From an uncultured Alphaproteobacteria bacterium (GTDB lineage Bacteria > Pseudomonadota > Alphaproteobacteria > RF32 > CAG-239): a stretch of DNA of 64,000 nucleotides. Made by a program: the position numbers and the translations under genes. The stretch spans positions 247,981-311,980 of the forward strand of contig CALXTU010000001.1 of assembly GCA_944391495.1 (NCBI GenBank), in the 5' to 3' direction. Below the pieces are notes generated by a model. It ran no database searches. It worked only from the letters and a program-made list of their open reading frames with translations, and was not told where the DNA came from. This document shows, piece by piece, positions 19,310 through 20,098 of the stretch (positions are counted from its first letter, which is position 1; every line of letters begins with the position of its first letter).

Positions 19310-19418
19310 AAAGGTCGTATAACGGCTTATTACTTGTTATCCCTATTGCTTATGTACTATTTTTGGTACACTGCGCAATAGGGATAACTTTGTACTAAGC
19401 TCGTTCTTCGACCTTTTT
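19308..19418. repeat. Long hairpin repeat element (copy A)
   Basis: It starts in the hppA stop codon with AAAAAGGTCGTATAACGGCT and ends with CGACCTTTTT. The two arms pair over about 42 nt, including a perfect inner TTATCCCTATTGC/GCAATAGGGATAA. Copy B (27829-27954) has the same layout with a shared TATAACGGCTYAT motif. It resembles a MITE/REP-type palindrome and can also act as a bidirectional terminator. Confidence 0.7.
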
Positions 19419-19442
19419 ACAAAAGTTCATATAACGCTTATA

Positions 19443-19483: not shown

Positions 19484-19792
19484 TTATATTTTACGGGTAA
19501 TTTCCTGCAGGGCGACTTTGATTTTTTTTATTTCCGTCAAATCTTGCCGGGTATTGGTTATATCAAACTCTTCAATTGAAAATTTCAGTTTATGGCCATA
19601 ATAGCCGAACAAATCTATAATATCGGTCAATTTTTTAACTTGCCAGGTCTGTATTTTGCCTTCTTCCAAAAGCCATAGTTTTTCACGGCCGTGTTTGGTA
19701 ATTGCCGAAGCCTCTTCCAGACTCAGGTGCGCTTTCATCCGGCTTTCCTGGAGCAGTCCGCCGAGTTGGCGTGCCGCTTTTTTAAATGCCAC
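19484..19792 (-). CDS. Small Xre-type helix-turn-helix protein with unusual start
   Basis: 102 residues. An HTH-like region spans about 8-60 (LGGLLQESRM, LSLEEASAITKHGREKLWLLEEG, VKKLTDIIDLFGYYG), as in Xre/HipB-type regulators; the charged C-terminal tail is not recognisable. The only in-frame start is a GTG at 19792 without a ribosome site. A strong AAAGGAG (19819-19825) instead serves an ATG at 19809 in another frame, which reaches the Xre frame only by a -1 shift at A AAA AAG (19777-19783). Either this is programmed frameshifting, or an A-run length error, or weak GTG initiation. No toxin partner lies next to it. Confidence 0.6.
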   Translation of the reverse strand: MAFKKAARQLGGLLQESRMKAHLSLEEASAITKHGREKLWLLEEGKIQTWQVKKLTDIIDLFGYYGHKLKFSIEEFDITNTRQDLTEIKKIKVALQEITRKI

Positions 19793-19809
19793 ATGGTTAT
19801 ATCATTCAT
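19735..19809 (-). CDS. Short leader ORF overlapping the Xre-like gene
   Basis: 24 codons from ATG 19809 to TGA 19735, with AAAGGAG nine bases upstream. It carries a slippery heptamer A AAA AAG (19777-19783) in the zero frame. A 13-nt GC-rich stem-loop (CGCC-AACTC-GGCG, 19759-19771) begins 5 nt after the heptamer. A -1 shift there continues as AARQLGG in the Xre frame. It could be the true N terminus of that protein (MNDITMWHLKK) or a translated leader. Confidence 0.45.
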   Translation of the reverse strand: MNDITMWHLKKRHANSADCSRKAG

Positions 19810-19831
19810 CAGTTTAAACTCCTTTATTTTG

Positions 19832-19866
19832 TTAAAACAAAACCGCCTTTTGAAAATAAAAGGCGG
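19832..19866 (-). terminator. Rho-independent terminator between structured RNA and Xre-like gene
   Basis: On the minus strand CCGCCTTTT-ATTTTC-AAAAGGCGG is followed by TTTTGTTTT. It lies upstream of the Xre-like start, so it either ends a small RNA or works as an attenuator for that gene. Confidence 0.65.
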
Positions 19867-19995
19867 GGAGCTCGTAAACTGCATAGGTACAGTCGCGCTT
19901 ATTCGAGCAAAAGCCTTATATCGCGCACTCCCCGGTCAAGGAGCTTTACCTATAAAGGTGTTTACGAGACACCACGGGAACAACTCGTTCCTGCG
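19842..19995 (-). ncRNA. Candidate structured RNA (small RNA or leader/attenuator)
   Basis: About 150 nt of non-coding sequence can fold as a long closing stem: CTCGTAAAC with GTTTACGAG, and TATAGGTA with TACCTAT. This encloses two smaller hairpins, CTCC-TTGACCG-GGGAG and GCGCG/CGCGC. A promoter-like TTGCTT-N17-TACAGT precedes it on the minus strand and the terminator at 19832-19866 ends it. The size and closed-rod outline recall 6S RNA, but I could not match its central bubble, so no family is claimed. It may instead be a riboswitch-like leader of the Xre-like gene. The plus strand also ends in a hairpin plus T run (GGAAC-AACTC-GTTCC), so orientation is not certain. Confidence 0.45.
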
Positions 19996-20098
19996 TTTTT
20001 GACTGTAAAAGAAAAAGTGCAAATAAGCAAGCCGGTTTTTAATTAAATCTTATCTTTTGTTTGTTAAGCTTGGCAAAAGTCCTCAAAGGGGAAGTGTA

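Follow-up and report, generated by a model that had tools for sequence, protein, structure and literature searches.

The minus strand ahead of a small Xre-type gene in the window (the whole stretch of 64,000 nucleotides of an uncultured alphaproteobacterial genome that was analysed) carries a structured RNA that is probably an antisense leader RNA of the C4 / P4-CI type, with sRNA-Xcc1 as its closest family and the small Xre-type gene downstream as the gene that it controls. The coordinates of its elements are given in Table 1.

Table 1. Elements of the RNA and of its gene (window 19484-20030), listed from 5′ to 3′ along the minus strand
Element	Position	Strand	Basis or remark
Promoter-like site TTGCTT-N17-TACAGT	20002-20030	-	TTGCTT at 20030-20025, TACAGT at 20007-20002; read from the sequence
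P1 hairpin GGAAC-GAGUU-GUUCC	19977-19991	-	Predicted fold
b1 strand CUCGUAAAC, 5′ half of helix P2 (upstream mimic, seqA-like)	19960-19968	-	Complements b′ at 19879-19871
a1 strand around AUAGGU, 5′ half of helix P2b	19946-19954	-	Complements a′ in the P5 loop
P3 hairpin CUCCUU-GACC-GGGGAG	19928-19943	-	3′ strand GGGGAG can alternatively pair with CUCCCC (P0)
Antisense core (P0, P4, P5, linker, terminator)	19836-19933	-	Model R1, 102.7 bits
P4 stem with conserved internal loop GAUAUAAG / GAAUAA	19894-19927	-	Covariation
P5 hairpin CUGU-...-GCAG; loop is a′, antisense to a1	19879-19892	-	Covariation
b′ linker UUUACGAG and CUCCCC (P0 3′ strand; can pair with the Xre ribosome-binding site)	19865-19878	-	Pairing computations
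Intrinsic terminator CCGCCUUUU-AUUUUC-AAAAGGCGG and U-rich tail	19866-19835	-	Between RNA core and Xre gene; terminator scanner
Xre ribosome-binding site GGAGUUUAAACUG-AUG, seqC-like	19807-19822	-	SD GGAG at 19822-19819; 6+7 bp with 19882-19866
Xre-like small HTH protein, 102-aa ORF from GTG	19792-19484	-	HTH_31 E 0.013, below cut-off

Fold and covariation of the RNA

A segment of ~155 nt is predicted to form the long closing stem and the pair of inner hairpins that the earlier note had described in about 150 nt, and in addition a small hairpin on the 5′ side. The minimum free energy of positions 19832-20004 is -58.5 kcal/mol, compared with a mean of -43.9 kcal/mol for 200 dinucleotide shuffles (z -3.55), one of which was equally good. 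The compensatory changes by which the note had proposed to check the fold are present in the homologues. Pairs were counted in an alignment fitted to the structure of R1, a covariance model of the core that was trained on the copies of the same genome. Among 96 distinct rows (103 copies), standard pairs fill 99.2% of the pair cells, and changes on both sides occur in 18 of the 23 core pairs; none of 500 shuffles reaches any of the five measures that were computed. The covariation score is 0.421, compared with 0.138 when shuffled and 0.015-0.052 for slid structures. Helix P0 is 99.8% paired with both-side changes in four of its six pairs, P4 has such changes in all five of its pairs, and the terminator stem, 98.7% paired, has them in four of five. 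The members of subfamily II, described below, have CCG..CGG where P5 otherwise has CUG..CAG, and other pairs replace GGGGAG/CUCCCC in their P0.

The motifs CUCCUU and CUCCCC are conserved across copies, and two folds compete because the GGGGAG strand can pair with either CUCCUU (P3) or CUCCCC (P0), each pairing excluding the other. The linker is bound by the upstream strand in the minimum free energy fold of 84 of 91 copies, and the antisense conformation (P0 and P5 together), when enforced, lies a mean of 11.5 kcal/mol above the fold in which the mimic is paired.

The other elements that had been noted on the minus strand were also recovered. TTGCTT-N17-TACAGT is present, although it is weak relative to the sigma-70 consensus and unlisted by a consensus scanner; 91 of 96 related copies have, 5′ of the core, the pattern TTGNNN-N16-18-TANNNT, a loose one whose chance rate was not computed. 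A hairpin of at least 5 bp is found within 100 nt 5′ of the core in 90 of 91 copies (chance rate likewise not computed), and these P1-type hairpins comprise 77 distinct stem/loop combinations, of which the commonest loop is GAGUU. The rho-independent terminator and the Xre-like leader that follows it, with its SD sequence, stand as had been described.

Complementarity within copies and the genes downstream

The strand upstream of the core is complementary to the loop and the linker of the core, as in the C4-type class of antisense RNAs. The mimic strand pairs with the loop (a′) and linker (b′) of its own copy at a mean of -18.3 kcal/mol, compared with -11.4 kcal/mol for swapped partners; permutation of mimics against cores gave z -31, a value that overstates independence since the copies are related. 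Comparisons within single genomes found the own partner to be uniquely best in 69 of 76 cases. The a′/b′ sequences are highly varied (89 distinct among 103 copies), yet their complementarity is kept; copy L004 is one in which the mimic-core pairing is absent. Identical pairing codes were seen in none of 250 pairs within genomes and in 18 pairs between genomes (0.4%), numbers too small to prove selection.

An SD-preceded ATG opens an ORF of at least 45 aa within 160 nt on the 3′ side of 79 of 98 non-redundant copies. The other 19, including four of the seven close copies in the genome of the window, have no such ORF of that size, and a few of them have GTG starts or short ORFs. One cluster of small Xre-type proteins takes in the ORFs of 62 of the 98 loci, and no other recurrent partner gene was found on either side of the loci in the stretches examined, which reached up to ~1.5 kb. 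The downstream proteins that were tested match the HTH_25, HTH_31 and HTH_3 models of Pfam, partly above and partly below the cut-offs, and the Xre protein of the window is 33-34% identical over 90-98 aa to those of copies L002, L004 and L009. The distance from the end of the terminator or core match to the start codon has a median of 28 nt over 69 copies, which is too short for an independent promoter and ribosome-binding site; therefore, Xre is probably expressed by read-through of the terminator.

The ribosome-binding site (RBS) gives a fainter signal than the mimic. Pairing of the core with its own downstream RBS was computed at -15.2 kcal/mol, compared with -13.9 kcal/mol for permuted partners (z -4.7, a figure inflated by relatedness) and -12.6 kcal/mol for unrelated GGAG RBSs, which only 12 of 69 copies beat individually at p<0.05. 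Copy-specific RBS pairing outside the SD sequence showed no clear excess among 69 copies. As a predicted target in the window subfamily, the RBS is only moderately supported.

An SD-preceded ATG on the minus strand (19809-19778) opens a 24-codon frame that is one base off the frame of the Xre ORF, a run of six A (19783-19778) being one place where the shift may lie. Because the other modules mostly use an in-frame ATG, the Xre gene of the window may be frameshifted, may have suffered a slip in assembly, or may contain a slippage site. Two loci (L097 and L188) have a tandem pair of RNA copies before a longer Xre gene (161-170 aa), and two others (L088 and L135) likewise lie before or near the longer Xre type.

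Subfamily II (CGGAUG type) occurs as single or few copies before genes for exported proteins such as a PEGA-domain lipoprotein and a PMP-repeat protein (L136, L104-L107). Its RBSs read AAGGATGTT, complementary to GAACAUCC of the core, and it is possible, judging by this complementarity, that its RNA controls surface proteins.

Kinship with sRNA-Xcc1 and phage antisense RNAs

sRNA-Xcc1 is reported to be associated with virulence and with vesicles in plant pathogens. An Rfam covariance search, which had been suggested with 6S RNA and riboswitch families in mind, gave no match in the window at gathering thresholds, and sRNA-Xcc1 (RF02221) appeared below threshold only. The window copy aligns with it at full length at 23.9 bits (E 0.028 in a 181-base search; the cut-off is 53 bits), with GAAUAA, the P5-equivalent hairpin and CUCCCC all aligned. 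RF02221 has full-length matches in the genus, the best at 43.5 bits, with E<=0.001 in 22 of 35 genomes and none above 53 bits. A match at L039, a locus at a contig end that was not re-anchored, was set aside, its stretch having read unlike the window RNA. The structural features of sRNA-Xcc1 are present in the window RNA, namely the outer helix, P4 with its AUA-AA/GAAUAA loop, the 3′ hairpin and the linker before the outer helix; the two RNAs share the core helix plan P0/P4/P5, and the GAAUAA loop is also in the sRNA-Xcc1 consensus.

The description of the RNA as 6S-like, offered earlier, proved wrong beyond its size. The length and the long rod-like fold do resemble 6S RNA (RF00013), but the RF00013 covariance model does not match the window RNA, and the genome has its own 6S gene elsewhere (C2:160625-160779, 58.7 bits, over the Rfam cut-off), so 6S identity was rejected.

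A scan of 398 genomes of the phylum found sRNA-Xcc1 above the cut-off in 39 of them. In the classical sRNA-Xcc1 loci examined, the mimic comes first, then a terminator-like hairpin and the core, and last a gene whose RBS is complementary to the core. Permutation tests, with approximate core boundaries for both sets, gave z -11.5 upstream and z -5.4 at the downstream RBS for 26 classical sRNA-Xcc1 loci, and z -11.6 and z -6.5, respectively, for 18 C4 loci. The genes after sRNA-Xcc1 and C4 loci include those of Bro-N, KilA-N, P22_AR_N, Rha, AntA and SymE proteins. SymE follows two of the classical sRNA-Xcc1 loci, and also Xanthomonas integron cassettes (PMC12444791). Searching with the DNA of two classical loci led to phages whose matching stretch is closely followed by an annotated antirepressor gene; an annotated ant gene stands behind it in Aaphi23, Rac-SA53 and phi296. 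To judge from these sequences, sRNA-Xcc1 (L050-L079, L313-L315) is built like the C4-type antisense RNAs of phages. sRNA-Xcc1 and antirepressors were never named together in the restricted literature that was searched, and one paper that contains both sRNA-Xcc1 and C4 treats them as separate annotations.

The locus in the window resembles the classical sRNA-Xcc1 loci in having an upstream mimic; the complementarity between core and downstream RBS that those loci show is only moderate here. It differs from them in that the mimic is joined to the core without an intervening terminator, the terminator lying between core and gene, and in that the gene encodes a small Xre regulator rather than an antirepressor or SymE. 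The C4 RNA of P1 and P7 (RF01695) is an antisense RNA with the same plan of upstream complementary element, antisense core and downstream RBS (PMC12197685), and it too has one target segment in a hairpin loop and the other in a linker; however, C4 loci have a terminator-like hairpin between mimic and core, and C4 targets ant. No phage antirepressor was found as the downstream gene of the window family, whose genes encode small HTH (Xre) proteins. The C4 covariance model has no match in the window at E<=10, and c4-2 (RF02944) has none in 35 genomes, which is weak evidence as the latter model matched nowhere. A c4-a1b1 motif was described alongside c4 by Weinberg et al. (PMC2864571).

P4 CI and IsrK/STnc1160 of Gifsy-1, compared by published description only, resemble what is proposed for the window RNA, an antisense RNA within a leader and terminator read-through. 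The seqA-CI-seqC arrangement of P4 places an antisense RNA inside a leader that is complementary to it both upstream and downstream, and IsrK of Gifsy is a dual small RNA and mRNA through terminator read-through (PMC4825925). The genes of these systems are different, and IsrK itself is the upstream element.

Spread of the modules and possible modes of action

The RNA is one of seven or eight close copies in its own 1.46-Mb genome, where DNA-level search gave seven copies and model R1 ten matches. DNA search alone finds relatives in 25 of 58 related genomes, whereas model R1 finds the family in 31 of the 35 genomes of the genus, with a maximum of 28 copies in one 1.4-Mb genome, and also matches other genera and families of the class. 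The assemblies are MAGs, and the named matches in GTDB species genomes are all MAGs designated as alphaproteobacterium or proteobacterium. Four of the five loci that were read outside the genus have mimic, core, terminator and then a small ORF in the same order; the fifth (L318), at a contig end, was read off-register. The hppA and MFS genes adjoin without the module in four relatives (L219, L221, L222 and L223), an empty site indicating that the module was either gained in the lineage of the window or lost in the four relatives. Forty-one pairs of modules have cores more than 93% alike, many of them without similarity between the flanks. The modules of the window's own genome sit among housekeeping genes, and no prophage gene was evident by eye.

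A palindromic element (19312-19425) lies between hppA and the Xre gene, with outer arms AAAAAGGTCG/CGACCTTTTT and inner arms GTTATCCCTATTGC/GCAATAGGGATAAC; its inner arm is absent from all other fetched loci. A dispersed intergenic repeat, TCATGTTGAGCG...GAGATTCTTCG...CAGAATGACA, often flanks modules on either the 5′ or the 3′ side (L002, L004, L005, L009). Nine matches returned by a pattern scan of viral contigs all lacked the GGGGAG/CUCCCC core on reading and were taken as chance.

According to the proposed mechanism, a single promoter would give rise to an RNA that contains the mimic strand (a1 and b1), the core with the complementary a′ and b′, and then the terminator. Most transcripts would end at the terminator as a free small RNA, and those that read through would provide for Xre synthesis, so that the two possibilities given by the earlier note, a small RNA or a terminator-controlled leader, may both apply at once. 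The stable fold would have a′ and b′ bound by the mimic and GGGGAG held in P3. Release of the mimic would produce a compact core similar to sRNA-Xcc1, in which GGGGAG pairs with CUCCCC, P5 is closed, and a′ and b′ are free. The free a′ and b′ together with CUCCCC could then pair with the RBS of Xre (GGAG..AAACUG-AUG), in cis or from another transcript; alternatively, the free core could target the nascent mimic of another transcript and promote termination, as in P4. Either pairing would keep Xre off. Parallels for such repression are the action of C4 RNA on phage ant (PMC12197685) and of CI RNA on the P4 early operon (PMC4825925). The route by way of the nascent mimic may be considered equally good as the route by way of the RBS, and would fit the much stronger mimic-core signal. 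Several observations speak against an antisense leader: the moderate RBS complementarity, the 19 copies lacking a downstream ORF of the stated size, the energetic cost of the antisense conformation, the missing mimic-core pairing of L004, and the sub-threshold Pfam match of the window's own Xre protein. In addition, mimic and core appear to share one RNA, whereas C4 and sRNA-Xcc1 loci have a terminator between the two.

Other explanations of the same observations are less probable. A cis-only leader (riboswitch or attenuator) that senses a ligand or protein and acts on Xre through the terminator, its two folds being on and off states that are perhaps set by Xre, is unlikely. The terminator 28 nt (median) before the gene, the mutually exclusive folds that use a common GGGGAG strand and the conserved internal loop of P4 as a possible binding site would suit such a leader, but variable a′/b′ sequences with complementarity kept suit antisense specificity and not ligand binding, several copies are without a downstream ORF of the expected kind, and the kinship with sRNA-Xcc1 and C4-type RNAs also argues against it. 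There is still less to recommend a family of free trans-acting small RNAs whose CUCC-rich stretches block the SD sequences of many host mRNAs, with the Xre neighbourhood incidental. Although the CUCCUU and CUCCCC motifs are conserved, some copies have no downstream ORF, and the RNA has its own promoter-like site and terminator, most copies precede a small Xre-type gene at a fixed short distance, the conserved complementarity is with the copy's own upstream strand, and CUCC and GGAG are accounted for by P3 and P0.

A probability slightly lower again may be given to a toxin-antitoxin-like module, in which the RNA would restrain the small HTH protein as a harmful product in the way that sRNA-Xcc1 precedes SymE. 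The products tested resemble HTH regulators of the Cro/CI type, no recurrent second gene was found within the up to ~1.5 kb examined, and there is no sign of toxicity, despite the order of RNA, terminator and gene, the presence of SymE after two classical sRNA-Xcc1 loci and after the Xanthomonas cassettes (PMC12444791), and the location of similar modules at differing places. It is very improbable that the element is a non-regulatory dispersed repeat (MITE- or REP-like) with a hairpin and a terminator. The earlier note had held that a match to a dispersed repeat family with many copies would count against a structured RNA. A dispersed family it is, with many copies at differing loci, an empty site in four relatives and similar modules within unrelated flanks, but an inert repeat it is not: compensatory changes are kept at 18 of 23 core pairs, the complementarity is copy-specific, and the promoter-like site, the terminator and the gene behind, which is mostly of the same kind, indicate RNA modules.

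The reading of the RNA as an antisense leader would link sRNA-Xcc1 to the classical phage C4 and P4-CI antisense switches, and the published trans-target predictions for sRNA-Xcc1 may need re-reading. A broader and considerably more speculative possibility, which is rather doubtful as a whole, is that a phage-type antisense immunity switch was co-opted by gut alphaproteobacteria and multiplied across the genome as mobile RNA-plus-Xre modules, mutually orthogonal because each has its own pairing code, forming a regulatory (or anti-phage) network independent of resident phage, with a sister subfamily of the same RNA core before exported and lipoprotein genes. Such a switch would have expanded to as many as 28 separate modules in one small genome. 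Studies of specificity would gain a natural collection of RNA pairs that differ in their pairing codes, and the modules may offer a testable reason for the many small Xre genes in a small host genome.
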